Source: a virus
Reading direction: 5' to 3' (one strand)
IMG/VR virus record: IMGVR_UViG_3300037042_007260
Coordinates: 1 to 20,113 of that record
Length of the DNA: 20,113 nt
This document shows positions 1 through 16,282 of the stretch, in pieces. A program made the translations under genes and the position numbers. The notes under the pieces are model-generated. The model did no database searches. It had not been told where the DNA came from and was given only the letters and a program-made list of their open reading frames with translations. Within the stretch, counting starts at the first letter, position 1, and each line of letters starts with the position of its first letter.

Positions 1-1241
1 AGCCTCTGATCCCCTTTCAGGTCCAACACCTGCATGGTGACCACGTTCGCCGATCCGTCGCTTGTTATCACGTGATGGTCCTGCGGCAGCGCCTTTGATA
101 GCCTCTCTATGAAGTGGTAGTTGCTTATCGGTCCGTTCATGCTCCTGTGTCTGGGTAGCACCTTCGGCGCCTTGTTGAGCTGGTCACACCTGGTGAGCCA
201 CTCCTCGTTGGTTACTGGCAGCTCCTTGGCCAACAGCGAATCTATGAACTCCTTTGCATCGGCACAAATCTTCAGGTCGGTGTACAGGGTCGGTTTGTCC
301 AGCTCTGCCTGGTCTATGTCCACGTGCACCTTGTACGCCTGCTCGGCAAACCCCTTGAAGTTGTAACCTGTCTGCCTGACGTACAGCCGGCTCCCTATCA
401 CCAGCAGGAAGTCGCACTCGCTCAGAAGGCTGTTTGCGCATATCTGTGCGTGGGTCCCAAACCTTCCATAATAGTGCCTGTAGTCTGAATTAACGACGTC
501 GTTTCCGTTTACTGCTGATATCACAGGAACGCTGGTCCGGTCGGCCAGAACGCGCACAGAATCGACCCCGTCGCTAAGCCTGATGCCATTACCCACTATC
601 ATCAGCGGATTCTTGGCCGACCTCCACCTCTCCACCACAGAGTTTACCTTATCGTCATCTATGTCCGGAGTCGTTTTCGTCGGATAGTCGAACCCTTTCA
701 GCTTCTCCGGGATTATGTCCACCGACTGCACGTTCAGCGGTATGTCCACCCAGACTGGGCCGGGTCTGCCCGTAGTCGCAAGGTGGCACGCCTTCTCGAG
801 GTGAAACCTTATCTCTGAAGGATCGTTCACCTGCACGGCGTACTTTGTCATGTTCCTAACGGACTCTATTATGTTGAACTCCTGATCCCCGAGCTGCCTC
901 AGCGGCAGTCCGGTGTAGTTTGTGGTCATCTCCTTGTTGACCTGACCGCTCACTACTATGACCGGTATGGAATCCAGCCAGCTGCACAGTGTGCCGGTGA
1001 GGGCGTTAGTTCCGCCCGGTCCGCTCGTTACCACGCAAGCCCCAAGCCTGTTGTTCGCCCTGGCGTAGCCCTCTGCTGCGATCGCTGCAGCCTGCTCGTG
1101 GTGCGTTGCCACGTACTTGACGCCGTCGGTGTGGCCAAGGGAGTCCACCAAAAAGATGCAGCCTCCCCCCGACACCGTGAACACGGTATCCACCTCGTAC
1201 TCGTCCCTCAAAAAATTTATTACGTAATCAGATACTCTCAT
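1..1241 (-). CDS. Acetolactate-synthase-like TPP-dependent enzyme (3' end cut by window edge)
   Basis: I translated this open frame from the ATG at 1241-1239; about 413 codons are visible and it runs off the left edge. The start MRVSDYVINFLRD, the HHEQAAAIAAEGYAR stretch with the TPP-activating Glu at about E49, TSGPGGTNALTG, and a late TSDGSANVV segment matching the GDG start of the TPP/Mg motif place it in the IlvB/POX superfamily. Family members are about 550-600 residues, so the last quarter is missing. Its start overlaps the end of the cyclase gene by 14 bases, so translation is probably coupled. A biosynthetic acetolactate synthase is unlikely in a phage sugar cluster. A sugar-modifying carboligase (YerE-like) or a ring-acting lyase (IolD-like) fits better, but the substrate is inferred. 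Codon use is striking: I count 18 of 23 Ile as ATA and 19 of 22 Arg as AGG or AGA. Confidence 0.88.
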   Translation of the reverse strand, partial: MRVSDYVINFLRDEYEVDTVFTVSGGGCIFLVDSLGHTDGVKYVATHHEQAAAIAAEGYARANNRLGACVVTSGPGGTNALTGTLCSWLDSIPVIVVSGQVNKEMTTNYTGLPLRQLGDQEFNIIESVRNMTKYAVQVNDPSEIRFHLEKACHLATTGRPGPVWVDIPLNVQSVDIIPEKLKGFDYPTKTTPDIDDDKVNSVVERWRSAKNPLMIVGNGIRLSDGVDSVRVLADRTSVPVISAVNGNDVVNSDYRHYYGRFGTHAQICANSLLSECDFLLVIGSRLYVRQTGYNFKGFAEQAYKVHVDIDQAELDKPTLYTDLKICADAKEFIDSLLAKELPVTNEEWLTRCDQLNKAPKVLPRHRSMNGPISNYHFIERLSKALPQDHHVITSDGSANVVTMQVLDLKGDQR

Positions 1242-2244
1242 AAGTCTCTTTTATCGAATCCCTCAAAACATCGAGGTCCTCTATATTTTCCAAAAACGGC
1301 GCAGAACCGACCAACACCATGGTCATCCTTCCGGTGTTCTTCTTGTCTGACTTTGCTATGGCCATCAGTCCGTCAAAGTCGAACCACTCCTTCCGCAGCT
1401 CCAGTCCACTGTCCCTGATCATCTCCGTGCCTTTCTGTATTATAAGACTATAATCTTTATTATCGAAATCTAACTTACGAGCGACACGCGCTGCTATCAT
1501 GCCGCCCAGCACCACTCCCAGTCCGTGGGGTATCTCGTGGTGCGATGCGGATTCCAGGGCGTGGCCGAAGGTGTGTCCGTAGTTCAGAAAGCGACGCTCT
1601 CCCTTGTCGAACTCGTCAAGGTTTAGTATGTCGATCTTGTACTTCAGGCTGTCCTCTATCATCTCCCGTATCCCGTTTTTCACGTGGAAGTCGCTGATCT
1701 TGCCCTGGAGTATGTGGAACTTGTATATCTCACCGAGCCCGCTCAGGTAGTCCGTGTGGCCCAGGGTCCTTAAGAAATCCGTATTGATCAGTATCCTCGT
1801 TGGCGGATAGAAAGTTCCGAGTATGTTCTTCCTGCTCTGGAAATTCACCGAAGTCTTTCCTCCTACGCAGCTGTCCGTCTGTGCCAGCAGGGTCGTTGGA
1901 ACCAGCACGTAGTCTACGCCCCTACAGTATATGGACGCACAGAACCCAACCAGGTCCTGCAGCACTCCGCCGCCGATAGCGACAAGCTTTGTTTTTATGT
2001 TTGCTCTACGCTCCGATAGCTCAGCCAGCAGCACACTTACGCCCTCCATAGTCTTTGCGTATTCGGTGCAATCCACTTTTATGTTGTCGTCCTTTCTTAT
2101 CTGAGGATACAAGCTGGAAACGTTCGAATCTACTATGGTTATCGTGTTCTCCGAATGGATCAGCTCCTTTATCTCGTCGTAGGAATCTACGAATTCCAGT
2201 TCGTAGTCTCTTATTTTTGATCGTACTAATATTTTGCTGCGCAT
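1228..2244 (-). CDS. 3-dehydroquinate-synthase-like sugar phosphate cyclase
   Basis: 338 residues, close to the usual length of the AroB/sugar-phosphate-cyclase superfamily. Visible signatures are the NAD-binding GGGVLQD (91-97), PTTLLAQTDSCVGGKT (about 116-131), and candidate metal ligands E172 (GLGEIYK), H224/H228 (GHTFGHALE) and H240 (PHG). The family cyclises a seven-carbon keto-sugar phosphate through transient oxidation by bound NAD. Members include dehydroquinate synthase, 2-epi-5-epi-valiolone synthase and 2-deoxy-scyllo-inosose synthase. Chorismate synthesis is an unlikely role, because the neighbours are an aldolase, an SDR, a TPP enzyme and glycosyltransferases. A carbocyclic or unusual ketose product is inferred. 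The start overlaps the end of the SDR gene by 19 bases. The superfamily call is firm; the subfamily is open. Confidence 0.9.
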   Translation of the reverse strand: MRSKILVRSKIRDYELEFVDSYDEIKELIHSENTITIVDSNVSSLYPQIRKDDNIKVDCTEYAKTMEGVSVLLAELSERRANIKTKLVAIGGGVLQDLVGFCASIYCRGVDYVLVPTTLLAQTDSCVGGKTSVNFQSRKNILGTFYPPTRILINTDFLRTLGHTDYLSGLGEIYKFHILQGKISDFHVKNGIREMIEDSLKYKIDILNLDEFDKGERRFLNYGHTFGHALESASHHEIPHGLGVVLGGMIAARVARKLDFDNKDYSLIIQKGTEMIRDSGLELRKEWFDFDGLMAIAKSDKKNTGRMTMVLVGSAPFLENIEDLDVLRDSIKETYESI

Positions 2245-2864
2245 GAATAACCTCCGTCTATTTTAATGTTCTGTCCCGCAATGTAATTATTGTTCACGCA
2301 CAAGCTGTACACCAGGCTGGCCACCTCCTCCGGATATCCGAGACGGTTCACCGGGATGCCTTTTACTATGGAATCCAGGTCCTCTTTGGAATTATTCTGA
2401 TAGGTCAGCTCCGTAGAAATAAAGCCAGGCGATACCGTGTTTGCTGTTATGTTGTGCGCTGCGTATTCCACCGTGATGCTCTTAGTCAACGAATGTAACG
2501 CGTTCTTGCTAGCATTGTACGCCAATCTTTTTGGTTTTGTGACGTCTATCCAGATGCTACCTATGTTCACTATCCGGCCGAATTTCTGGTCCATCATGTG
2601 CGGCAGACACTGTTGGACTATCTCCAGGGGAGACGTGTAGTTTACACGCATTACCTCTTCGTCGGTGATGTCCATCAGATCGTTCAGCGGGTTTATCCCG
2701 GCGTTGTTTATGACCACGTCGAAATCTACAGAAGGCAGCAGGGGTCTTCTGCTCAAGTCCAACTCCGATCTGGACGGTGCCACCACTAGGTGGTCGTGAG
2801 ATCTGAATTTTTCTGCTATAGCCTTTCCTATTCCCCTGCTGCCTCCTGTTATCAGTACCTTCAT
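2226..2864 (-). CDS. Short-chain dehydrogenase/reductase (SDR)
   Basis: I place the start at the ATG at 2864-2862 (MKVLITGG), giving 212 residues. The frame is open further upstream, but that stretch lies wholly inside the aldolase gene. Stop and start interlock as TAATG, a sign of coupled translation. Classical SDR features are TGGSRGIG (6-13) for NAD(P), NNAG (53-56), catalytic S103 (NIGS) and Y116/K120 (YNASK), then SPGFIST. At 212 residues it is slightly shorter than the usual ~250. The protein is a soluble NAD(P)-dependent oxidoreductase that probably reduces a keto group on the product of the neighbouring aldolase, cyclase or TPP enzyme. Which step it serves cannot be read from the sequence. 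Confidence 0.92.
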   Translation of the reverse strand: MKVLITGGSRGIGKAIAEKFRSHDHLVVAPSRSELDLSRRPLLPSVDFDVVINNAGINPLNDLMDITDEEVMRVNYTSPLEIVQQCLPHMMDQKFGRIVNIGSIWIDVTKPKRLAYNASKNALHSLTKSITVEYAAHNITANTVSPGFISTELTYQNNSKEDLDSIVKGIPVNRLGYPEEVASLVYSLCVNNNYIAGQNIKIDGGYSCAAKY

Positions 2865-3664
2865 TACTTGTAAGATATCGATTGGTTTATGCGATCCTGT
2901 ATCATCTGTATGCGCTTTATGTCCTGGTTTGCAGCGATCGTGCACTGCTCGTGCTTTGACATAAGCCATTCGTACTCAAACATTTGTGCTTTGGACAACG
3001 CCCTTGAAAGATTCTTCAGCGTTATCGACGGATCGAATATCGCGTACCTGGTTTCGAACTTATCGAGCAGTCCCTCTGAGTGTAGCTTCTTCAGGAAGCT
3101 CAGCGAGTCCACCGAGATCGCTCCACCTAAGCAGGCCTTCAATCCCTTCTCCTTTGCCTTAGTAAACACTCCGTGGGCCATCTTGTAGACCTCGTCGCTG
3201 TTGACATAGCCTCTATCCCTTCCCATGGAAGACACGAGATCAACGCGGCCAACGGTTACTCCATACAGATCCATCGCTTCCTGAGAGTCCAGCATCTTGT
3301 CAGCGTTTCCAACGGCAGTGACGGTCTCTATGTTCACGTTCAGCTGCAACGACTTCAGGACGTCTTCCGGAATGTGTGTTTTTGTTGCTGCTACAAACTT
3401 CTTCAGGCCAAACTCAGACTCTACCATCGGTGCCACTATGCCCTTGACTCCTATCACCATGGAATCTTTCAGATCTCTTATGGCCTCCGGTCCTCCGATC
3501 TTAAGCGTCACTTTTGTCTTGGCCTGGTTGCAGACCTCCTTCAGCCTTATGGTCTCGTTAAAGGTTGCACCTTCGTCCTCGAAGCTCGTCTTAACTCCCA
3601 CCAGACCCTCGTTTTCGATCAGGTCTGTCAGTATTTTTACACAATTAAATTCTCTGCTGTTCAT
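2864..3664 (-). CDS. HpcH/HpaI aldolase / citrate-lyase-like protein
   Basis: I start it at the ATG at 3664-3662 (266 residues), one base after the methyltransferase stop. An in-frame TTG seven codons upstream is possible but would overlap the previous gene. Features of the phosphoenolpyruvate/pyruvate TIM-barrel superfamily are LKIGG (55-59), APMVESEFG with a candidate metal ligand E82, NIETVTAVGN (111-120), and TVGRVDLVSSMG with R140 and D142. Relatives perform metal-dependent aldol additions or cleavages with pyruvate-like or acyl substrates. Sitting directly before an SDR and a dehydroquinate-synthase-like cyclase, it may supply the chain-extended keto acid or ketose they act on. That role is inferred; the fold assignment is fairly secure. 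Confidence 0.78.
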   Translation of the reverse strand: MNSREFNCVKILTDLIENEGLVGVKTSFEDEGATFNETIRLKEVCNQAKTKVTLKIGGPEAIRDLKDSMVIGVKGIVAPMVESEFGLKKFVAATKTHIPEDVLKSLQLNVNIETVTAVGNADKMLDSQEAMDLYGVTVGRVDLVSSMGRDRGYVNSDEVYKMAHGVFTKAKEKGLKACLGGAISVDSLSFLKKLHSEGLLDKFETRYAIFDPSITLKNLSRALSKAQMFEYEWLMSKHEQCTIAANQDIKRIQMIQDRINQSISYK

Positions 3665-3665
3665 A

Positions 3666-4415
3666 TTATAGCTTTTTAAAAACAATTAAATAATTAATTT
3701 CATCCGGGTCTGATACTATTTCTACAAGTTCGTAATTGCTTTTGATATCATTTGCCATTTCCTGGGTTAAGTATGCTGACGCGTAGCTGTCCCAGTTCTG
3801 GAATTCCAATAAAACATTCGCATTATCGTACCCATACCAGCCTCTGCTTTTTAAAGGATTTTGAATATCCTCCATAAAATAATATCCGCCAGGCTTCAAT
3901 AGATCAATGCTTCTATATAAAGAATACATTACATGATGCGGATAATGGCTGCCATCCTCAACTATAAAATCTATGGAATTTTTGCCTATTTCGTTTACAA
4001 TGAAATCCCAATCTTCCGATGATCCTTGATCAGCATATATAAAATTAGTGCCTATATTTAATATTTCTGTAATACGATCTGGGGTAAATGGATGTCCCCA
4101 GAAATTATCTACAGAATACAATTCAATATTTTTAAAATATTGTAGCCACATTTTTGGTGATGCAAATGGGAATCTCTGATCGCAAATTCCTATCTCCATG
4201 AATTTAACTTTTTTGCCGGACCTATAGGGTTCCATATATTTTTCATACACAGGAGTATAGTGCCAAGACGCATGAGATGGAAACGCCGGCGCCCAAGTTA
4301 AAAATTCTCGAGCTAGGGTACCCTTATCAGTCTGTAAACTGTTTGCTAGTTCGGTTAATGTCAGTTCTTTTGTGTACTTCAGTTCAGTACCTGTCTTTAA
4401 AAATAATTGAGCCAT
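3666..4415 (-). CDS. Class I SAM-dependent methyltransferase, demethylmacrocin O-methyltransferase-like
   Basis: 249 residues. The N-terminal LTELANSLQTDKGT followed by HYTPVYEKYMEPYR is typical of the macrolide-sugar O-methyltransferase group (MycE/TylE-like), usually written as GTDK...Y. The SAM site includes EIGI (74-77) and acidic D103 (SVDNFWG). Metal/catalytic-type residues are EDGSHYPHH (153-161) and MEDIQNP (about 181-187), after LKPGGYY. Group members methylate sugar hydroxyls, so the likely role is capping or decorating a surface sugar made by the adjacent enzymes. The ATG lies 3 bases after the dehydratase stop. The gene is visibly more AT-rich than the aldolase and cyclase genes beyond it, suggesting separate acquisition. 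Confidence 0.82.
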   Translation of the reverse strand: MAQLFLKTGTELKYTKELTLTELANSLQTDKGTLAREFLTWAPAFPSHASWHYTPVYEKYMEPYRSGKKVKFMEIGICDQRFPFASPKMWLQYFKNIELYSVDNFWGHPFTPDRITEILNIGTNFIYADQGSSEDWDFIVNEIGKNSIDFIVEDGSHYPHHVMYSLYRSIDLLKPGGYYFMEDIQNPLKSRGWYGYDNANVLLEFQNWDSYASAYLTQEMANDIKSNYELVEIVSDPDEINYLIVFKKL

Positions 4416-4418
4416 GAT

Positions 4419-5378
4419 TTACCAGATAAATTTGTTTTTATAATAATCTACGATATTTTTTATTTCCGTGTCAAAATTTCTTTTGGGTTGCCATCCTATT
4501 TTCTTGAGCTTAGAATCATCCAAGGCGTATCGTACGTCCTGGCCAGGTCTTGTTAACGAAAAATCTATGTAGAGATCCGGATCTATGGAGCCAATCTCTG
4601 GATGGTAGCTCTCGATTATTTTCATAACCGTGTCTATGTTGGATTGTTCGAATCCCCCTGCGATGTTGTATATCTCGCCGATCTGTCCTCTCTCTATGAT
4701 AGTGATCACTGCGTCTGCCGTGTCCTCTGCATGCAGCCAGTTCCTGTATGGCTTGCCTTGGTTGTGCAGTGGTATCTTCCTCTCCAGGTTCAAGCACTTG
4801 ACCGTCTTTGGTACGAGCTTCTCTACGTACTGTCCTATGCCGTAGTTGTTGGTCGGTCGCACTATCATGTACGGTATCTTGTGGGTTCTACCCCATGCCA
4901 TTATCAACATATCTGCGGCTGCTTTGGTTGCAGAGTACGGATTGCTTGGCTTCAGGAGATCTGACTCTGTGTGTGCTCCGGATTCTATGTCCCCGTAGAC
5001 TTCGTCTGTGCTGAAGTGGATCAAGGTCGGTTTGCTGGAGTTCTCACCCCTGTGGTTCTTTATCAGCTCCAGGATGTTGTGAACTCCGTCTATGTTCGAC
5101 TTCACAAACTCCGTGCTGCTTGCTATGCTGTTTCCTACGTGAGTCTCTGCTGCAGTGTTTATGATGTAATCACAGTCGTAAAGAAACTTGAGATCGTTTA
5201 TGTCGCAGTGCACAAACGAAAAGTTTGGATGCTGCATGAACTCTTCAAGCAAATCTTTATTGGCAGCGTAAGTCATCTTATCTACGCCTTTCACGTACCA
5301 ACCTTTCTGCAGGCAGGCGCGGGTGACATATGATCCTATGAACCCCAGACAGCCTGTTACGTAAACTACTTTTATCAT
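4419..5378 (-). CDS. NDP-sugar 4,6-dehydratase (RmlB-like extended SDR)
   Basis: 319 residues, the usual size for the dTDP-glucose 4,6-dehydratase family. It has the Rossmann motif TGCLGFIG (8-15), AAETHVGNS (76-84; canonical AAESHVD), the dehydratase triad STDEVYGD (123-130, with D125 and E126 in the acid/base positions), and Y148/K152 (YSATK). RPTNNYGIGQ, EKLVPK and a YRNWLHAED nucleotide-binding segment follow. It should convert an NDP-hexose (dTDP-glucose by best match) to the 4-keto-6-deoxy form, the entry point for deoxysugars. STDEVYG argues against the CDP-glucose type, which usually has SDK. No matching nucleotidyltransferase is in the window. A 3-dehydrase two genes upstream is a natural partner. 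Confidence 0.92.
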   Translation of the reverse strand: MIKVVYVTGCLGFIGSYVTRACLQKGWYVKGVDKMTYAANKDLLEEFMQHPNFSFVHCDINDLKFLYDCDYIINTAAETHVGNSIASSTEFVKSNIDGVHNILELIKNHRGENSSKPTLIHFSTDEVYGDIESGAHTESDLLKPSNPYSATKAAADMLIMAWGRTHKIPYMIVRPTNNYGIGQYVEKLVPKTVKCLNLERKIPLHNQGKPYRNWLHAEDTADAVITIIERGQIGEIYNIAGGFEQSNIDTVMKIIESYHPEIGSIDPDLYIDFSLTRPGQDVRYALDDSKLKKIGWQPKRNFDTEIKNIVDYYKNKFIW

Positions 5379-5467
5379 CCTTGTATTTTTATTTTTTAGT
5401 TTCTTGTTCTTTTTAATTTTGAATGCAGAGTATGCTGTAATTGCATTAGATAATTCATATAAAGTTA
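5379..5467 (-). other. 89-base AT-rich intergenic gap
   Basis: The only sizeable gap inside the left sugar block. It holds no convincing gene. AATGCA (about 5422-5427) and TGCATT (about 5442-5447) form a weak 6-base inverted repeat, and T-runs follow on the plus strand. It could carry an internal promoter for the dehydratase and the genes after it, but no clear -35/-10 pair stands out. Confidence 0.4.
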
Positions 5468-6403
5468 TTACTTATAGTAATCATGACAAATCTGTACAAA
5501 TTTATGAATTTGATCGATACTCTCTTTTTCTATCAAATCCAAATGACCGTTCAGTTCGTGTCGTACTCCCCTGGCCCTATCTAGTTCATCCGTCCCATAT
5601 GCAAGGTATCGATGCAAAGGATGACCTTCATAATACTCACCCTTTGACAATCCCTTTCTTGGCACAACAACGGAATCTGCTCCGCACATAACCGCTTGAA
5701 CACTCACAAACGTATAAGGATCGTACGAATAGAATATATTCGTCTGATTAAGCACGTACGCAAACTTATGATACTGACCTGGGAAATCAAAATCTGGAAG
5801 TGCCTCATCTATCTCCCCAAGAAATACATCAGTAGGTTGGTGTATATAGTCTTTTGGATCTATTAATCCTGTTGATTTTCTCAGAGTCCAGCAATTTATG
5901 GTCCTGTTAATATTCTGATTATAAAAAATTTCTCTGTAGAATTCACCCAGGTATAGATTGTTATCTAAGTTCTTATCAAAAGAGCTGAAGGTCTTTGTTT
6001 TATACAGCGGGGCATACCAGAACCACAAATCAGAGTCTTTCCAAGCATCCCATCTCACCCCCCATCCGCTGCCAGCAGTCATGTATTTTGGATTAACTGG
6101 TCCCATTATCCACCTGACCACATTGGGAGCATTTAGATAATTGCCGTACCATGTTTCCGGATACACCACTATCGCATCCTGTAGATTGCTGTAGACTTCG
6201 TCCGTTATCAGCTTTATCTTATCGTATTTGGAGGATATCTGAAACGGATTATGTGATAGGTGCCAGCCCAACCCAGATGGGCCAGACGGCGCCAGATATG
6301 CGTCATACCCCAGGTCGTTCAGCATGTGAACCAACTTGTGTAATATTGTTAAGCCGCCGCTTCCAGGAAACCAGCTAGGAGCACTGACTACGAATTTTTT
6401 CAT
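5468..6403 (-). CDS. Probable GT-B-type glycosyltransferase
   Basis: 311 residues. The N-terminus FVVSAPSWFPGSGGLTILHKLVHML looks like the acceptor-side Rossmann start of GT-B glycosyltransferases: a beta strand, then Gly-rich loop GSGG and a helix. It also resembles capsule and O-antigen transferases that begin with 'GG..v...L...L...G'. Near the C-terminus, YSYDPYTFVSVQAVMCGADSVVVP matches the donor-binding segment seen in such enzymes ('Y..DP.T.l..EA..cG..vv'). No signal peptide or membrane segment is visible. The start overlaps the 3-dehydrase stop as ATGA. Donor and acceptor are unknown. Glycosyltransferase is the best call, without a firm family number. Confidence 0.65.
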   Translation of the reverse strand: MKKFVVSAPSWFPGSGGLTILHKLVHMLNDLGYDAYLAPSGPSGLGWHLSHNPFQISSKYDKIKLITDEVYSNLQDAIVVYPETWYGNYLNAPNVVRWIMGPVNPKYMTAGSGWGVRWDAWKDSDLWFWYAPLYKTKTFSSFDKNLDNNLYLGEFYREIFYNQNINRTINCWTLRKSTGLIDPKDYIHQPTDVFLGEIDEALPDFDFPGQYHKFAYVLNQTNIFYSYDPYTFVSVQAVMCGADSVVVPRKGLSKGEYYEGHPLHRYLAYGTDELDRARGVRHELNGHLDLIEKESIDQIHKFVQICHDYYK

Positions 6404-7548
6404 CTGCCGAAGAATTCTTTTATCTTATCACATACATAGTCTACATCCTCGGTGGTCATTCCGTGGTGTGCACCCAGCAGGAATCCGTTCTTCATGATCG
6501 TGTCCGCGTTCTCGAACGGCTGCAGGTACTCCCTGTAGATCGGGTGTCTTGTGACGTTGCCGGCGAATGTGACCCTGGTCTGTATGTTCCTGGTTTCCAA
6601 GAAGTTAAGCAGCTCTAGCCTGTTCTCCGTCTGCAGCGGTATCGCCAGCCAGTTCGGTTGGATGCTGTCGTCTGGCAGCACTATCTCCTTAACGCCCTTC
6701 AGGTTCTCCATGTACCTCTCTATGTTCTGCCTCCTGATCTTCCTGAAGTTTTCGAACTTGTCAAGCTGCACCAGACCGAACGCCGCGTTCATCTCTGAAG
6801 ACTTCATGTTGTACCCGAGCACCCCGTAGAGGAACTTGTGATCGTACGGTATCCCGTCGACCTGGTGGTTGAACCTGTCGGCCATTATCTCAGAGTTGTC
6901 GCCCATGCGTCCCCAGTCCCTGTACTGCAGCGCCCTGTGAACCTGCTTCTCGTCGTTGAACATCACCATGCCACCGGATCCTCCGGCCGTTATGATGTGG
7001 CTCGCGTAGAAGCTCGTTGTGGATATATCGCTGTCCTCTGTGTGGGTTATCGTGTCTGCAGAGTCCTCTATGAGAACTATGTCCTCCCTGTTGATGTTTC
7101 GGAGCTCGTTTTTCAAGGCTTTCCAGTCCGGCTTGTTACCTATAAGGTTCGGGATCATGATGGCCCTGGTGCGCTCAGAAATCAACGAAATGACGTCCTT
7201 GACCGACGGCACGTACGCTGTGAGGTCCACGTCGCAGAAAACGGGCTTGAAGCCCAGCTGTATTATGGGAGCGACAGTGGTCGAGAATGTGCACGCTGGC
7301 GTTATTACCTCGCTGCCCTTCGGCAGGTCCAGTGCGGCAAGCGCCAGCAGGCACGCCGACGATCCCGAGTTCACGAACACGCCGTATCTCTTTCCGAACT
7401 TCTCCGCTATGCGCTTCTCAAACTCAATGGATCTTGGTCCGAAACCCGCGATCCATCCGTCCCGGAGGCACTCTTCCACGGCCTTTATTTCTTCCTCTCC
7501 GTAGGATTCAAACTTGTTGGGGGCGTACCAAACTTTCTTTGTAATCAT
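6400..7548 (-). CDS. DegT/DnrJ/EryC1-fold sugar 3-dehydrase (ColD/RfbH-like, His replaces catalytic Lys)
   Basis: 382 residues with the fold-type I PLP sugar-aminotransferase architecture: NSGSSACLLAL (60-70), ITPACTFSTTVAPI (82-95), a cofactor-binding ED pair at 161-162, then SFYASHIITAGGSGG. In aminotransferases of this family the last motif carries the Schiff-base Lys (S...K..T.GEGG). Here the aligned residue is H184. In ColD (GDP-4-keto-6-deoxymannose 3-dehydratase) and RfbH/E1 (CDP-sugar 3-dehydrase) the same Lys-to-His change converts transaminase into 3-dehydrase. Length fits ColD (about 390) better than RfbH (about 437), and no four-Cys [2Fe-2S] cluster is evident. Predicted reaction: C-3 deoxygenation of an NDP-4-keto-6-deoxyhexose. 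The start overlaps the GT2 gene as ATGA. Confidence 0.88.
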   Translation of the reverse strand: MITKKVWYAPNKFESYGEEEIKAVEECLRDGWIAGFGPRSIEFEKRIAEKFGKRYGVFVNSGSSACLLALAALDLPKGSEVITPACTFSTTVAPIIQLGFKPVFCDVDLTAYVPSVKDVISLISERTRAIMIPNLIGNKPDWKALKNELRNINREDIVLIEDSADTITHTEDSDISTTSFYASHIITAGGSGGMVMFNDEKQVHRALQYRDWGRMGDNSEIMADRFNHQVDGIPYDHKFLYGVLGYNMKSSEMNAAFGLVQLDKFENFRKIRRQNIERYMENLKGVKEIVLPDDSIQPNWLAIPLQTENRLELLNFLETRNIQTRVTFAGNVTRHPIYREYLQPFENADTIMKNGFLLGAHHGMTTEDVDYVCDKIKEFFGR

Positions 7549-8156
7549 ATTGTCTCGTATAATTTGTTTTGCTTCTCTTGTTTCTCTATCGTCTTCGGGT
7601 GTATCAGGTAGAACTGCTCCGGGAGTCTAGACACCGTGCCGTGACCGGTTATCCTCTCGTGAACTTTTCCTATCCACTTCAGCTCTGGTTTGTTCTTGCA
7701 TATCCTGCTCTGAAGGTCTGGCCAGTTTATCCTGCCGTCCTCTTCCACTATCCATCCCCACCTGTGTACGTGCTCGTGCGTCAGTCCCTCTACCATGTTC
7801 AGTCTCGGCACGTAGTAGAGATCGACCTCGGGATTCATTTCCAGTATGAGCGGAAGGTGCGTGAGGAGGTCCTCGTTCAGGTACTCGTCAGCGTCTACAT
7901 AAACTATGTAATCCTTTTTTGCGAACTTCTTTATGTTGTTCTTGAAAGTTGCAAAATCTTTATTGAGTGGAAACTCTGTTCTCGTCACGAGAGGAAACTT
8001 CTCCAGAACCCCCCTGACTTCATCTGTGGCGGTAGTATCCAGCTGGACTATTATCTCGTCGTCTATGTTTATGTTTGCGTCGAGCTGCGTCAGAAGACGC
8101 TCTAGTTCAGCGTGTTCGTTGCAGGCTGTGATTGCGTAACTTATTGTTGGTGTCAT
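7545..8156 (-). CDS. Family 2 glycosyltransferase (short, phage-type)
   Basis: 203 residues, a compact GT-A enzyme. The N-terminal ISYAITACNEHAELERLL is the usual GT2 start. YIVYVDADEYL carries the DxD-type metal/donor site at D88-A89-D90, and a later NWPDLQSRICKNKPELKW with GKVHE matches the short GT2 proteins found in phage and bacterial surface-polysaccharide loci. There is no membrane helix, so it is probably cytosolic and acts on an activated or lipid-linked acceptor. It interlocks with both neighbours (TAATG upstream, ATGA downstream), so the GT2 and 3-dehydrase are made together. Sugar specificity cannot be read. Confidence 0.86.
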   Translation of the reverse strand: MTPTISYAITACNEHAELERLLTQLDANINIDDEIIVQLDTTATDEVRGVLEKFPLVTRTEFPLNKDFATFKNNIKKFAKKDYIVYVDADEYLNEDLLTHLPLILEMNPEVDLYYVPRLNMVEGLTHEHVHRWGWIVEEDGRINWPDLQSRICKNKPELKWIGKVHERITGHGTVSRLPEQFYLIHPKTIEKQEKQNKLYETI

Positions 8157-8631: not shown

Positions 8632-9915
8632 TTACGGCAGCTCTACTTTTTTTAGAGTAGGTAGCTTTAGTTCTACTTTTTTGGGTATGATTTCTAAAAA
8701 CTTAGCAAGCTTTTCTTTCATCGCATCATAAGAGAAGTTTGTCTTTATGTGATGTGCTTGGCGTTTTGCGTTGTCTGTGTACTTAGAGTAGTTCTCAAAC
8801 ATATCTACCATTTTCTCAGAGGCGAACTTCATATTTGCAGTAAACCACTTAGATCCTTGTATCAGCATGTTTTGTGCTTGTGCTGATGGGTGAATATCTG
8901 TGAGTTCTCCTGGCACGAATGTTACATACTCAGGGCTGCAGAAGTCTACATGTCCTGACCAGGCCGAAACTATCGCAGGCTTCTTGCTCACAAAGAACTC
9001 TGCCAGCGGGCGACCGAATCCTTCGCCCTTTGTGAGGTACAGCATCGCCTTGATCTTGTCGTGGTTATAGAGGTAGTTCATGTCCTCGTCGTCCAGGTCT
9101 CCGTGTATGAGGTAGATGTTCGGAAGGTCCTTCGAGTTTATCGTGCTCCTTATCTGGTCTATGCTCTCCAGGATAGAGTCTCTGTCCATGATAGAGTTGG
9201 TTCCCCTCGCTGTCTTTAAAACTAGGGCAGGCTTCTTCTTCTTGTCCTTGAACGTCTCCAGGAAGGTCGCTATGGTCTGGCCGAGGTTCTTCCTGTCCTC
9301 GCCGATCGTGCCAGGCAGCCAGTGTCCCACGAAAAGGAAACAGAAGCTCTCCTCTATGCCGTCGAGGGCGTTGACCAGATCCGTTGCCGGAATGTCGTTA
9401 TCCTGTATGAAGGAGTACTTGCTCAGGTCTATGCCCTCGAACAGGACCTCTACGCGACTCTGCAGCTTCACCTGTCTTACGATCTGTCCGGTGTTCTGGT
9501 CCTGCTGGTTGAAGGTCGTCGACTCGAAAACCGTCTTTGCGTGCTGAGAAGACACCAGGTTGAGGTTCATCCTGTTGCACCCGTCTATCCAGCTCGGATC
9601 GCATATGGTGGTCTCTATGCCAGCCGTTACTCCTATGTTGAACTTGCCTACGGGTTGAAACTCGTTCGGAACCGTTATCTGGATCCAAACGTCTGGCTGC
9701 ATGTTGAGCTGGTTAATGAGCAGCGGTTTCACCCACTGGTACTTCTCCTCGTCTGGACTGTGCCAGGCAGTGTTCCCCCATCTCTGAGGAATCACCTTTA
9801 CCTCCCATTCGTCCTTCTTCGCTTCGTATAATGCTTTGACGAAATCGTAACTGCGCGCTCCGTACCCGCTCGCCGTGAGTATCGGGCAGCTTATGACTGC
9901 TAATGGTTTTATCAT
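8632..9915 (-). CDS. GT4-like glycosyltransferase
   Basis: 427 residues. The acceptor-domain start LAVISCPILTASGYGARSYDFVKAL has the 'SGYG..S' loop typical of family 4 retaining transferases. The donor domain has FCFLFVGHW (191-199), then YLTKGEGFGRPLAEFF (about 293-308), the EGFG...E nucleotide-sugar signature, followed by PAIVSAWSGHVDF. It belongs to the GT-B, group 1 class that uses NDP-sugars. It lies 4 bases downstream of a second GT4 gene, and the pair resembles tandem glycosyltransferases seen in large marine and freshwater phages. Possible targets are virion proteins, host envelope glycans or phage DNA; nothing in the sequence chooses between them. Confidence 0.86.
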   Translation of the reverse strand: MIKPLAVISCPILTASGYGARSYDFVKALYEAKKDEWEVKVIPQRWGNTAWHSPDEEKYQWVKPLLINQLNMQPDVWIQITVPNEFQPVGKFNIGVTAGIETTICDPSWIDGCNRMNLNLVSSQHAKTVFESTTFNQQDQNTGQIVRQVKLQSRVEVLFEGIDLSKYSFIQDNDIPATDLVNALDGIEESFCFLFVGHWLPGTIGEDRKNLGQTIATFLETFKDKKKKPALVLKTARGTNSIMDRDSILESIDQIRSTINSKDLPNIYLIHGDLDDEDMNYLYNHDKIKAMLYLTKGEGFGRPLAEFFVSKKPAIVSAWSGHVDFCSPEYVTFVPGELTDIHPSAQAQNMLIQGSKWFTANMKFASEKMVDMFENYSKYTDNAKRQAHHIKTNFSYDAMKEKLAKFLEIIPKKVELKLPTLKKVELP

Positions 9916-9919
9916 AACT

Positions 9920-11359
9920 CTAGTATGTGATTGGATGTGCTATCTTTTTTGGTGGAAATGCTGTGATCTTTATGAATTCGAACTGTGCTCTTGGCTGGAA
10001 GTTCTCTATGGTCTGAGTGAGCGTATCAAATACTCCATCTGCCATCGCCTGTGCTGTCATCTTTGCTTCTGATGATGTGGCCCATTTTCTACCTGCCATT
10101 CCCCTCTTCTGTCTTTCTTGTGGACTCATCTCATAGACCTGCTGTATCGCTTTGGCAACGTCTCTGAAGTCGCACCTGTCGTCCCAGATGTACGGAGTTG
10201 GTATAGAACCTACCAGGCTCAGATTGCTCGGATATACTGGCACTGCCCACTCTCCGTGCTCTTTAAGTGTGCCAAAGTGATTCGATGGCATGTCTTTGCT
10301 TGGCTCAAACCATTTGCCGTCCTTTACGAACCTCATCTGATCTTGCATTCCACCGGTCACGTTTGCGATGAACATCTTGCCGCTCATCACGGACTCAGTA
10401 ATGCTCAGTCCCCAGCCTTCGTTAGATGATACAAGAGCCGTTACGTCTGCCAAGTTGTAAAGTAGGTTCATCTGCTCTGGAGTGTATCTGTCCTCTGCGA
10501 AGTAAACTTTCTGGTAACTTGGATCGCAAAGAAGCTCTACCACCTTTGGAAGATCTGTACCGTGCTCGTCAAGTCTCTGCGTGTGTAAAAGCAGTGCACA
10601 CTTCTTAGCCTTCTCTTTGCCGATGGAGTCTGTGAACTTTGCCCATGCAGCGATTAGATCCGATGTTGATTTCCTCCTGATGTTTCTTGCGTTGTAGAGG
10701 ACTACGAACTCTGGATTAAACGAACCAAATATGCTCTTCTTCATCTGCTCCATCGCCGTGTTTGCTTCAGGCATGAACTCTGTGATCGGGAAGAACGTCT
10801 TATCGTTGATACCGTGTGGAACGTAATTGATAATCTTGCTCTTTGCTTTATCTCCGAGTACGAGCTCTGTCAGGATCTTGGTCTGCTTTGATATGCACAT
10901 GAAGCTGTCGCAAGACTCGTAGTATGATTTGTTGTACAGTGGAGCTGGAGGACAATCCCATATCGATAGATAGGTGATTGGTAGCTTCTTTCTGATCTCT
11001 GCCTCCATGTCAAACAGCCAAACGTAATACCTTGGATCTGTGAACAACATCATCGCATCAGGTTTTTCTATCTCGATAATCTGACGGATCATGTCTGGAT
11101 TTCCGTAACCATCTGTGGGATACAGGATCACCGAAGCGTCCGTGATTCCTAGCATGTTGTTTGTGTCTTGGGATAGATCCAGTCTCTTGCCTTTTTCAGG
11201 ATGGTTGATTCCTCCTGCTATCTGAACCCAGTTGAATTTGTGTGCTGAACCGAGTACTATCTCTCTCGACATCGTTGCAACGCCTGAGTGCATTCTGAGA
11301 TCATCGCCGAGGAATAGTATCTTCTTTCTCTTGTTTTGTGGAATGTAACCGTTTACCAT
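9920..11359 (-). CDS. GT4-like glycosyltransferase (second copy, larger)
   Basis: 479 residues. KILFLGDDLRMHSGVATMSRE is the typical N-terminal strand-loop of group 1 transferases. Later come PHGINDKTFFP (181-191), FVVLYNARNIRRKS (218-231, a donor-domain R-x4-5-K region), and SSNEGWGLSITESVMSG (311-327), the EGxGL...E signature. It shares architecture with the next gene but aligns only at motifs, so it is not a recent duplicate. The start is 3 bases after the stop of the ribbon-helix-helix-like gene, placing it first among the enzymes in this transcription unit. The substrate is unknown. Confidence 0.86.
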   Translation of the reverse strand: MVNGYIPQNKRKKILFLGDDLRMHSGVATMSREIVLGSAHKFNWVQIAGGINHPEKGKRLDLSQDTNNMLGITDASVILYPTDGYGNPDMIRQIIEIEKPDAMMLFTDPRYYVWLFDMEAEIRKKLPITYLSIWDCPPAPLYNKSYYESCDSFMCISKQTKILTELVLGDKAKSKIINYVPHGINDKTFFPITEFMPEANTAMEQMKKSIFGSFNPEFVVLYNARNIRRKSTSDLIAAWAKFTDSIGKEKAKKCALLLHTQRLDEHGTDLPKVVELLCDPSYQKVYFAEDRYTPEQMNLLYNLADVTALVSSNEGWGLSITESVMSGKMFIANVTGGMQDQMRFVKDGKWFEPSKDMPSNHFGTLKEHGEWAVPVYPSNLSLVGSIPTPYIWDDRCDFRDVAKAIQQVYEMSPQERQKRGMAGRKWATSSEAKMTAQAMADGVFDTLTQTIENFQPRAQFEFIKITAFPPKKIAHPITY

Positions 11360-14337: not shown

Positions 14338-15993
14338 CTACATCATTCCAGCCATATTAGGAAGTCCATCTCCTGAGTTGTCTTCTTTGTCAGACTTCTT
14401 CTCAAGCACTACTGACTCCACTGTAAGGATCGTTCCTGCTACGCCTGCTGCGTTCTTGATAGATGAAGTTACGACCTTTGTAGGATCAAGAAGTCCTGCC
14501 TCGATTCCGTTCACTATGCATCCGTTCTTTGCGTCGAATGTGGTGAACTTATCGTCCTTGGAGTTTATTCCGTGCAGGATCTCGTACCAGTTTTCTATAC
14601 CAGCATTTGAGAGTATCTTCTTAAACGGAGTATGACAAGCTTCGTACACGATCTGGAATCCAAGCTTTTCGTTGTCTTTCCAAGTCAGTGTGTTGTTCTT
14701 CATCATCGTGATCGCCTTGATAAGCGCTACGCCACCTCCAGGAAGTATACCGTCTACTAACGCAGCCTTTGTTGCAAGCAGCGCGTCCTCAACTCGGTCT
14801 TTCTTCTCTTTCATCTCGATCTCTGAGTTTCCACCTACGTTGATGATCGCTACTCCACCGATGAGTTTACCAAGCCTATCTTGCAGTTTCTCCTTTTCAA
14901 AGAATGACTGTGCATTGTCTATCTGGTCTTTGATCTCTTGTGAACGTGCTACTATTGCCTCTGCATCGCCTTTACCGTCAATGATCGTAGTCTCCTCTTT
15001 GCCCACTGTTACGATCCTAGCTTTACCAAGGAGTTTGTCCATCGCGTCAGGAGTTGTCTTCTCGAGCTTGTGTCCTTTGTTCTTTGACATCACAGTCGCA
15101 CCAGTCAAGATGGCCATGTCCTCAAGAAGAAGCGTTCTGCGATCTCCAAAGTCAGGAGCTTTTACTGCCGCTACCTTTACTACGCCACGCATCTTATTGA
15201 CAATCAATACCGCCAGTGCCTCGTCTCCGTAGTCTTCTGCAACGATGAGAAGCGATTTGTTCTCTGAGTTTGCTTTCTGTAGGAATGGCACTACCTCGTT
15301 CATCGAGTTGATCCTACCGTCGTAAAGCAAAATGTACGTGTCTTCCATTACCGCCTGCATCAGAGTGTTGTCTGTTACAAAGTATGGACTCTTATATCCA
15401 CGGTCAAACTGCATGCCCTCTACCACTTCCAGTGTAGTCTCTCCGGTCTTTGATTCCTCGATGGTGATAAGACCCTCGCGCCCAACCTTGTCGATTGCCG
15501 CTGAGATCAACTCTCCCACTTCTGGATCATTGTTACCTGAGATGATCGCAACCTGCTTGATCTGCTCTTCTGTGCTGACATCGACTGAGATCTTCTTGAG
15601 TTCTTCTATGACCATGCTAACGGCCTTGTCGATTCCTGATTTTACCTCTACTGCATTCGTGCCTTGGCGTATTGCCTTGATGCCCTCTTTGATCATCTGA
15701 GTAGCCAGCAGTGTTGATGTAGTAGTACCGTCGCCTGCCTCATTCGCTGACTTTATTGATACCTGCTTTACCATTTGTGCTCCAAGATCTTCGAAGTCAT
15801 TCTCCAGTTTAAGGAATGCCTTTGCTACCGTGACTCCGTCCTTTGTGGCTTTTACCTCGCCGTTTGGTTCTCGTATCAGCACTGTGCGACCTCCAGGGCC
15901 CAAAGTAGAAGATACCGTGTTGTTTAATTTCTCAATGCCTGCAAGGAGTTGTTCCTTGAGTTCTTGTCCGAAAACGCTATTTGTAGTGCTCAT
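14338..15993 (-). CDS. groEL: GroEL-type chaperonin (phage-encoded)
   Basis: 551 residues, full length. ATPase residues are in place: D52 in KDGVTVAK, GDGTTT (87-92), and a late RVEDALLATKAAL followed by DGILPGGGVAL with the catalytic Asp. The phosphate loop reads LGPGGRTV, where bacterial GroEL usually has GPKGR. The apical segment FDRGYKSPYFVT is typical. The tail ends GLPNMAGMM, a shortened form of the Gly-Met tail of bacterial GroEL. It folds proteins in a closed cage with GroES, and in phages it presumably serves capsid or other structural proteins. It begins 1 base after the groES stop. Its codon use favours ATC for Ile, unlike the sugar-cluster and polymerase genes, where ATA dominates. 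Confidence 0.97.
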   Translation of the reverse strand: MSTTNSVFGQELKEQLLAGIEKLNNTVSSTLGPGGRTVLIREPNGEVKATKDGVTVAKAFLKLENDFEDLGAQMVKQVSIKSANEAGDGTTTSTLLATQMIKEGIKAIRQGTNAVEVKSGIDKAVSMVIEELKKISVDVSTEEQIKQVAIISGNNDPEVGELISAAIDKVGREGLITIEESKTGETTLEVVEGMQFDRGYKSPYFVTDNTLMQAVMEDTYILLYDGRINSMNEVVPFLQKANSENKSLLIVAEDYGDEALAVLIVNKMRGVVKVAAVKAPDFGDRRTLLLEDMAILTGATVMSKNKGHKLEKTTPDAMDKLLGKARIVTVGKEETTIIDGKGDAEAIVARSQEIKDQIDNAQSFFEKEKLQDRLGKLIGGVAIINVGGNSEIEMKEKKDRVEDALLATKAALVDGILPGGGVALIKAITMMKNNTLTWKDNEKLGFQIVYEACHTPFKKILSNAGIENWYEILHGINSKDDKFTTFDAKNGCIVNGIEAGLLDPTKVVTSSIKNAAGVAGTILTVESVVLEKKSDKEDNSGDGLPNMAGMM

Positions 15994-15994
15994 A

Positions 15995-16282
15995 TTAACT
16001 TAGTACTCCTAATACCTCTGTTTCTTTTGTGATGTAATAGTCTTCTCCGCCGAAGCTGATCTTTGTTGTGCCCATTTTAGGAATCATTACGATGTCTCCT
16101 ACGTTAAGGCTCGATGGGATTACCTTGTCTGAGTGGTAGTTGTAAGTCCCTGATGTGGCGATGACTTCTCCGGTCTCTGGCCTTTCTTTTCCCATGTCAG
16201 GCAGGATGATGTTTCCGATCATCTCCTCTGAGGTGTCTGTGGGTTTCATTACGATGTACCCATTTTTTGGTTGAATGTTCAT
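15995..16282 (-). CDS. groES: GroES-type co-chaperonin
   Basis: 95 residues, the normal GroES length. NIQPKNGYIVMKP opens the beta-barrel. EEMIGNIILPDMGKERPETG corresponds to the mobile loop that docks on GroEL, here with IILPD in place of the usual GIVLP-like triplet. GDIVMIPKMGTTKISFGGEDY and a final VLGVLS close the fold. It caps the GroEL ring. It starts 2 bases after the stop of a 98-residue unknown gene and is followed at once by groEL, so the pair is one unit. T4 supplies only its own GroES analogue (gp31), so carrying both partners is less usual. Confidence 0.94.
   Translation of the reverse strand: MNIQPKNGYIVMKPTDTSEEMIGNIILPDMGKERPETGEVIATSGTYNYHSDKVIPSSLNVGDIVMIPKMGTTKISFGGEDYYITKETEVLGVLS

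Follow-up and report, generated by a model that had tools for sequence, protein, structure and literature searches.

A phage gene cassette joining an aldolase, an AroB-like enzyme and a YerE-like branching enzyme, probably for a 3,6-dideoxyhexose with a long C4 branch

Introduction

Yersiniose and erwiniose are made by a 4,6-dehydratase, a 3-dehydrase and a thiamine diphosphate (ThDP, also TPP) enzyme that branches the sugar at C4. The branch of yersiniose comes straight from pyruvate, and neither an aldolase nor an AroB homologue is needed for it. Here we describe a viral cassette in which the same three kinds of enzyme are accompanied by both, in a 20,113-base IMG/VR fragment with its genes on the minus strand (record IMGVR_UViG_3300037042_007260, positions 1 to 20,113; hereafter the window, meaning this whole stretch of DNA). 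Pyruvate is a common donor of YerE (PMC12247030), the related JanthE (PDB 8rph; PMC12188165) takes 2-oxo acids that are long or 4-hydroxylated and uses ketones as acceptors, and ErwE favours functionalised donors >C4 (PMC12188165, PMC12247030). Caryophyllose, a sugar of the lipooligosaccharide of Mycobacterium marinum (MMAR_2332), is a 3,6-dideoxy-4-C-(1,3,4,5-tetrahydroxyhexyl)-hexose (PMC5706390), and the open literature on the M. marinum caryophyllose cluster lists no 3-dehydroquinate synthase (DHQS) or aldolase gene. On balance, we think that the phage cassette makes a nucleotide-linked 3,6-dideoxyhexose that bears a long carbon chain on C4, like those of caryophyllose and erwiniose.

Results

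In the reading direction the cassette consists of an E1-like 3-dehydrase, a 311-aa protein, an RmlB-type dehydratase, a methyltransferase-like protein, an HpcH/HpaI-like aldolase, a short-chain dehydrogenase (SDR), an AroB-like enzyme (DHQS) and the ThDP enzyme (Table 1). A sequence-only reading of the window had proposed a phage-borne, yersiniose-type pathway to a branched 3,6-dideoxysugar, which was the right direction and the wrong sub-type: a C4-branched 3,6-dideoxysugar pathway is supported, and the two-carbon logic of yersiniose is not, as the aldolase is inseparable from the ThDP enzyme and either DHQS and SDR or a HAD protein lies between them. The two decisive genes, those of the aldolase and of the AroB-like enzyme, had been missed. 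The cassette is real and recurs in phages. Its last four genes (HpcH, SDR, DHQS and ThDP enzyme) overlap one another by 1 to 19 bases (the start of the DHQS gene overlaps the SDR gene by 19), which suggests that they are translationally coupled.

A profile search with the aldolase retrieved 59 viral (IMG/VR) loci. The module takes two forms in them, form A with the order HpcH-SDR-DHQS-TPP (40 of the 59 loci) and form B with HpcH-HAD-TPP (14 of the 59); both forms never occur together (0/59), and the remaining five loci are cut or different. HpcH is followed by the ThDP enzyme in all viral loci except these five cut or odd ones, and the recurrence of the form A string in 40 of the 59 loci argues that it is not a product of chance. 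Some contigs are near-duplicates, so that the two forms do not represent 54 independent observations; this is corrected for by the aldolase tree, the well supported branches of which force at least four switches between forms A and B. The aldolases of locus L043 (form B) and locus L005 (form A) are 91% identical, their ThDP enzymes only 50%, and in the tree of the ThDP enzymes the phage sequences group by form. Because of the mutual exclusion, the repeated switching and the contrast between L043 and L005, both forms appear to share the product of the aldolase, the phosphate-removing enzymes appear to be interchangeable, and the phage ThDP enzyme would follow the donor. That the slot between the aldolase and the ThDP enzyme is filled by a phosphatase in one form and by an AroB-type phospholyase in the other also suggests that the aldolase product carries a phosphate which has to be removed. 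No isolate phage with HpcH was found in the aldolase profile search, and the DHQS and ThDP enzyme matches in isolate phages were bacterial-type or contaminant-like.

Several viral loci depart from these two arrangements. In a 210-kb phage contig (L069, 10001-14600) form A is rearranged: HpcH and SDR are followed by two extra genes, after which come divergent versions of the ThDP enzyme (40%) and, last, of DHQS (33%). The form B genes for HpcH, HAD and ThDP enzyme of L079 (10001-12700) are each split over several frames, which may reflect sequencing errors or decay. A viral HpcH homologue (42%) in L084 (6345) and L085 (8438) has no ThDP enzyme nearby and precedes epimerase-like genes.

The ThDP enzyme had been described as acetolactate-synthase-like (1-1241). 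It is a ThDP enzyme (the gene is read from position 3), and it groups with JanthE rather than with the acetolactate synthases. The full-length phage orthologues have 576 aa and are 63-73% identical to the window enzyme; a profile of 18 phage sequences matched JanthE best among PDB entries (458 bits), followed by ALS II, an acetolactate synthase, with 309 bits. A maximum-likelihood tree places JanthE in one clade (support 100/100) with the phage enzymes and with bacterial enzymes from similar clusters (linked to RfbF/RfbG); JanthE, on a long branch, is the one characterised YerE-like enzyme in the tree. Acetolactate synthases, IolD and other ThDP enzymes all fall outside this clade; a grouping with the first two, named beforehand as the outcome that would speak against a sugar-branching role, did not appear, and a simple acetolactate synthase or IolD-like lyase is thus rejected. 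With the YerE-like enzymes (YerE, ErwE, JanthE) the phage enzyme shares the ThDP fold, the JanthE clade, linkage to genes for nucleoside diphosphate (NDP)-4-keto-3,6-dideoxysugars and the GDG motif, carried by the full-length orthologues; unlike them, it is phage-borne and has as constant partners the HpcH-like aldolase and either DHQS plus SDR or HAD. We propose that it decarboxylates a long 2-oxo acid and adds the remainder to the C4 ketone of the sugar.

The AlphaFold2 (AF2) model of the HpcH-like protein (predicted local distance difference test, pLDDT, 92.5) has HpcH/HpaI class II pyruvate aldolases as its top folds (TM-scores 0.55-0.6), and the metal-ligand positions E120 and D149, invariant across 17 sequences, match the class II Glu/Asp pair; the conserved start of the protein is probably the ATG at 3664. 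The proposed product is a phosphorylated 2-oxo-3-deoxy acid. For DHQS, the AF2 model (pLDDT 89) matched 3-dehydroquinate synthases best (TM-scores 0.8-0.87), and all 15 positions checked against AroB were identical and spaced as in AroB, with catalytic and metal-binding residues kept. These include K203 and R217, the counterparts of the AroB pair thought to bind the substrate carboxylate. As the catalytic residues of AroB are all kept, this pair included, a 2-oxo acid phosphate would fit the enzyme, and its natural substrate may be a 2-oxo-3-deoxy acid phosphate resembling 3-deoxy-D-arabino-heptulosonate 7-phosphate (DAHP), a compound within reach of an HpcH-type aldolase. Of all models, TIGR04425 matched the protein best, with a score (314 bits) under its curated cut-off (400 bits). 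In the DHQS tree the phage clade (100/98) adjoins DHQS from Bacteroidota modules (90/88) and is separate from housekeeping AroB (100/99). Fold, NAD and metal-site residues and substrate pocket residues are thus shared with AroB, the sugar phosphate cyclases and TIGR04425 proteins, and the separate clade, the setting in a sugar cassette and a possibly non-cyclising reaction set the phage enzyme apart from AroB. The SDR always accompanies DHQS in form A and is missing from the HAD slot of form B. It was rightly assigned to its enzyme class and is a poor candidate for the YerF role given to it earlier, because it occurs together with DHQS and the HAD form does without it; we propose that it reduces the ketone produced by the phospholyase.

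For the acceptor sugar, the claimed NDP-sugar 4,6-dehydratase was confirmed, on the minus strand, and so was its assignment to the dTDP rather than the CDP type (TIGR01181 300 bits, CDP-glucose model only 77 bits). In most loci an RmlB orthologue (60-84% identical) lies upstream of HpcH, next to it or nearly so. The PLP (pyridoxal phosphate) 3-dehydrase with His for Lys was confirmed as well: its best PDB relative is 3bcx (207 bits, vs 129 for ColD), and H184 aligns with the E1 histidine that replaces the PLP lysine, so the exchange is real. In an alignment on the [2Fe-2S] cysteines of E1, all four are missing from the window enzyme and its close phage relatives (Ala replaces Cys before DALG, and the CYC...C loop is absent), whereas the longer E1 enzymes of sister phages and bacteria retain them wholly or largely. 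Because the window dehydrase lacks the Fe-S cysteines, the missing E3 reductase, listed earlier as a weak point of the pathway, may not be needed at all; a ColD-like, glutamate-driven cycle without E3 would be the simplest consequence of their loss. The window contains no nucleotidyltransferase, as had been noted. None was found in 12 of the 13 phage contigs searched, a difference from yersiniose and erwiniose biosynthesis, and the remaining contig gave one weak match; dTDP-glucose of the host is therefore assumed as the starting material.

In bacteria the module genes are joined to those of the CDP-glucose synthase RfbF and the CDP-glucose dehydratase RfbG, often with the 3-dehydrase RfbH. 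Form A is present in Bacteroidota (L140, L141; RfbH seen in L140) and Alphaproteobacteria (L139, L144; RfbH seen in L139), and form B in Arsenicibacter rosenii (L025) and in L142, both with RfbH and with HAD hydrolases recognised by Pfam. The phage module is likely derived from Bacteroidota-like bacteria. Two Bradyrhizobium-like genomes (L137, L138) carry RfbF-RfbG-HpcH-SDR-DHQS-epimerase-TPP, without RfbH in the stretch read; such a cluster without a 3-dehydrase would suit a C4-branched sugar in which the 3-OH is left in place. Such a sugar, related to caryophyllose but with the 3-OH, is described for Rhodopseudomonas palustris, and a search across the family gave 1 match in 392 genomes. Distant HpcH-like proteins (29-31%) of uncultured bacteria (L027, 9938-10720; L028, 2035-2823) have no ThDP enzyme near them and are flanked by genes that by eye look cytidylyltransferase-like and ATP-grasp-like, perhaps another use of the aldolase family.

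The window sequence is that of a phage, its backbone genes matching those of the isolate Flavobacterium phage vB_FspM_immuto (Immutovirus, 160 kb), the closest isolate, with the order kept. The right half is made up of backbone genes, those for a family A DNA polymerase, GroES and GroEL, a dUTPase, a deaminase, a nuclease and glycosyltransferases; identity to immuto is 56% for the polymerase, 57% for a glycosyltransferase and about 56% for the backbone where measured. GroEL and GroES, which immuto has too, are encoded at 14338-16282, adjoining the polymerase block. Both phages share the polymerase (PolA), GroES/EL, nuclease, two glycosyltransferases, a 152-aa protein and the family 2 glycosyltransferase GT2, in that order. 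Past GT2, immuto differs in carrying aminotransferase, acyltransferase-like and epimerase genes, the cassette of another sugar, and its aminotransferase retains the PLP lysine (LQAIKHIT), unlike the His-for-Lys enzyme of the window. As immuto holds a different sugar cassette at the same place, the site after GT2 (GT2 at 7545-8156 in the window; 17027-24000 in immuto, L167) looks like a place where Immutovirus-like phages exchange sugar genes. The glycosyltransferases reported to accompany the pathway were confirmed, and the reported O-methyltransferase stands as a weak PHROG methyltransferase match without a Pfam match; similar genes occupy this position in some viral loci and are absent from others. 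No match to the 311-aa protein was found in Pfam, NCBIfam or PHROG.

Table 1. Cassette genes and neighbouring glycosyltransferases in the window
Feature	Position	Strand	Evidence and remarks
YerE/JanthE-like ThDP enzyme, N-terminal 413 aa (C-terminal part beyond contig end)	3..1241	-	Pfam TPP_enzyme_N/M
AroB-like sugar-phosphate phospholyase/cyclase (DHQS fold), complete	1228..2244	-	PF01761 and PF24621; TIGR04425 314 bits
SDR (short-chain dehydrogenase)	2226..2864	-	Pfam adh_short_C2; YxxxK motif
HpcH/HpaI-like aldolase	2864..3685	-	PF03328 40 bits
Putative S-adenosylmethionine (SAM) methyltransferase, variable accessory gene	3666..4415	-	No Pfam match; weak PHROG methyltransferase match, 40 bits
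RmlB-type (dTDP-glucose) 4,6-dehydratase	4419..5378	-	TIGR01181 300 bits; STDEVYG motif
311-aa protein, possibly glycosyltransferase	5468..6403	-	Weakly similar (23-24%) to proteins encoded next to bacterial clusters
Short E1-like 3-dehydrase	6400..7548	-	NF011936 RfbH 269 bits; 3bcx 207 bits vs ColD 129
GT2 (family 2 glycosyltransferase)	7545..8156	-	PF00535; syntenic with immuto gp178; immuto variable sugar cassette starts past gp178
Backbone glycosyltransferase	8632..9915	-	Orthologues 46-57% identical across loci; syntenic with immuto gp180
Backbone glycosyltransferase	9920..11359	-	57% identical to immuto gp181

Discussion

From what was observed here (the enzyme families and the order of their genes, two forms that exclude each other and have switched repeatedly, the placement of the ThDP enzyme and the conserved active sites) we infer the substrates, the order of the steps and an open-chain rather than cyclic product as follows. 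RmlB would convert host dTDP-glucose to the 4-keto-6-deoxy sugar, from which the E1-like enzyme would take off the 3-OH, needing neither an Fe-S cluster nor E3. For the donor, the HpcH-like aldolase would couple pyruvate with a short sugar that bears a phosphate, most fittingly a tetrose 4-phosphate, and so form a DAHP-like 2-oxo-3-deoxy-heptonate 7-phosphate; the AroB-like enzyme would eliminate the phosphate without closing the ring, leaving a methyl ketone, and the SDR would reduce this 6-ketone, which preserves the terminal methyl group, prevents ring closure and yields a 2-oxo-3,7-dideoxy acid. The YerE-like ThDP enzyme would then decarboxylate this acid and attach the chain to the C4 ketone of the 4-keto-3,6-dideoxysugar, and reduction of the new ketone would give a 1,3,4,5-tetrahydroxyhexyl branch. 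A caryophyllose-type branch is supported in that a 2-oxo-3,7-dideoxyheptonate donor would yield exactly this structure; the match to the M. marinum sugar is one of product structure only. In form B the HAD phosphatase would simply hydrolyse the phosphate, and the branch would retain a terminal OH. The adjacent glycosyltransferases probably mount the sugar on the virion or the host surface.

Several observations weigh against this pathway. The HpcH-like protein is only distantly related to the aldolases that have been characterised (40 Pfam bits), and in a motif-level comparison neither the catalytic His45 nor the pyruvate-binding Arg70 of HpaI is recognisable in its aligned motifs (KTSFEDEGA, LKIGGPEA). 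The full set of AroB residues would also let the ring close in the usual way, and the quinate-like product could then not serve as a ThDP donor. The phage HAD-like protein is recognised by the motif DFDGVIH and a PHROG match, without a Pfam match. The ThDP enzymes of bacterial L140 (form A) and L142 (form B) are 86% identical, which weakens the idea that this enzyme follows the donor, and the window stops inside the ThDP enzyme gene, so that the C-terminus and anything beyond it lie outside.

The order of the last steps might be different: if the ThDP enzyme acted first on the phosphorylated donor, DHQS could close a ring on the branched sugar and the product would be carbocyclic, of the caryose/bradyrhizose kind. 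Such branched carbocyclic sugars with a tertiary C4 alcohol exist (the bradyrhizose genes were unknown in 2016; PMC4743980), and DHQS retains all the residues of a cyclase; its pocket residues, however, suit a free carboxylate, which the ThDP enzyme would already have removed, and the phage ThDP enzyme switches along with the phosphate-removing step, which makes this order unlikely in our view. Nor do genome searches help: 27 of the 266 genomes of a Bradyrhizobium-like genus are photosynthetic, and in thresholded searches none of the 27 had a close DHQS and none of nine tested had a YerE-like ThDP enzyme, so a link to bradyrhizose was rejected as support. The two Bradyrhizobium-like genomes in which the DHQS cluster does occur are non-photosynthetic and gave no match to replication genes of the BTAi1 plasmid.

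We consider it quite improbable that branching is of the two-carbon yersiniose type, with the ThDP enzyme moving acetaldehyde from pyruvate to the 4-keto-3,6-dideoxysugar, the SDR reducing the acetyl branch, and aldolase and DHQS acting elsewhere. RmlB, E1-like and YerE-like enzymes are all present as it demands, and the use of pyruvate by YerE is in its favour, but HpcH cannot be separated from the ThDP enzyme and the DHQS plus SDR or HAD step, form B lacks the SDR even though the same reduction would still be required, and other epimerase/reductase genes, found after the ThDP enzyme in sister loci, suit the YerF role better. That the DHQS-like gene is a phage-borne aroB which boosts the host shikimate pathway and has nothing to do with the sugar genes is very hard to credit, for despite an AroB fold and catalytic residues it scores 237 bits against the curated AroB cut-off of 305, overlaps its neighbours, is replaced by a phosphatase in sister phages and lies beside bacterial sugar-cluster genes in a clade separate from housekeeping AroB, a placement by which plain aroB was rejected.

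Compared with yersiniose and erwiniose biosynthesis, the long-branch pathway favoured here uses RmlB in place of the CDP route, an E1-like enzyme without Fe-S ligands and dedicated donor genes. We propose that the cassette represents a novel form of C-branched sugar synthesis of the YerE type, in which the AroB fold takes on a new role. More tentatively, it is quite possible that the AroB-fold enzyme acts as a non-cyclising phospholyase which, with the SDR, turns a DAHP-like aldol into a 2-oxo-3,7-dideoxy acid for grafting onto a 4-ketosugar by the YerE-like enzyme, that this puts the chemistry of 3-dehydroquinate synthase to a new use and is the missing route to caryophyllose-type branches, and that in phages it forms an exchangeable sugar "serotype" cassette alternating with the phosphatase version.

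If the proposed pathway is correct, the cassette would provide a nearly complete gene set for long-branched deoxysugars, a class with a poorly understood synthesis, and an example of an AroB-fold enzyme that supplies a ThDP branching enzyme. Uncultured Immutovirus-like phages would then trade rare-sugar cassettes at one locus, presumably varying the glycans on the phage itself or on the surface of the host.

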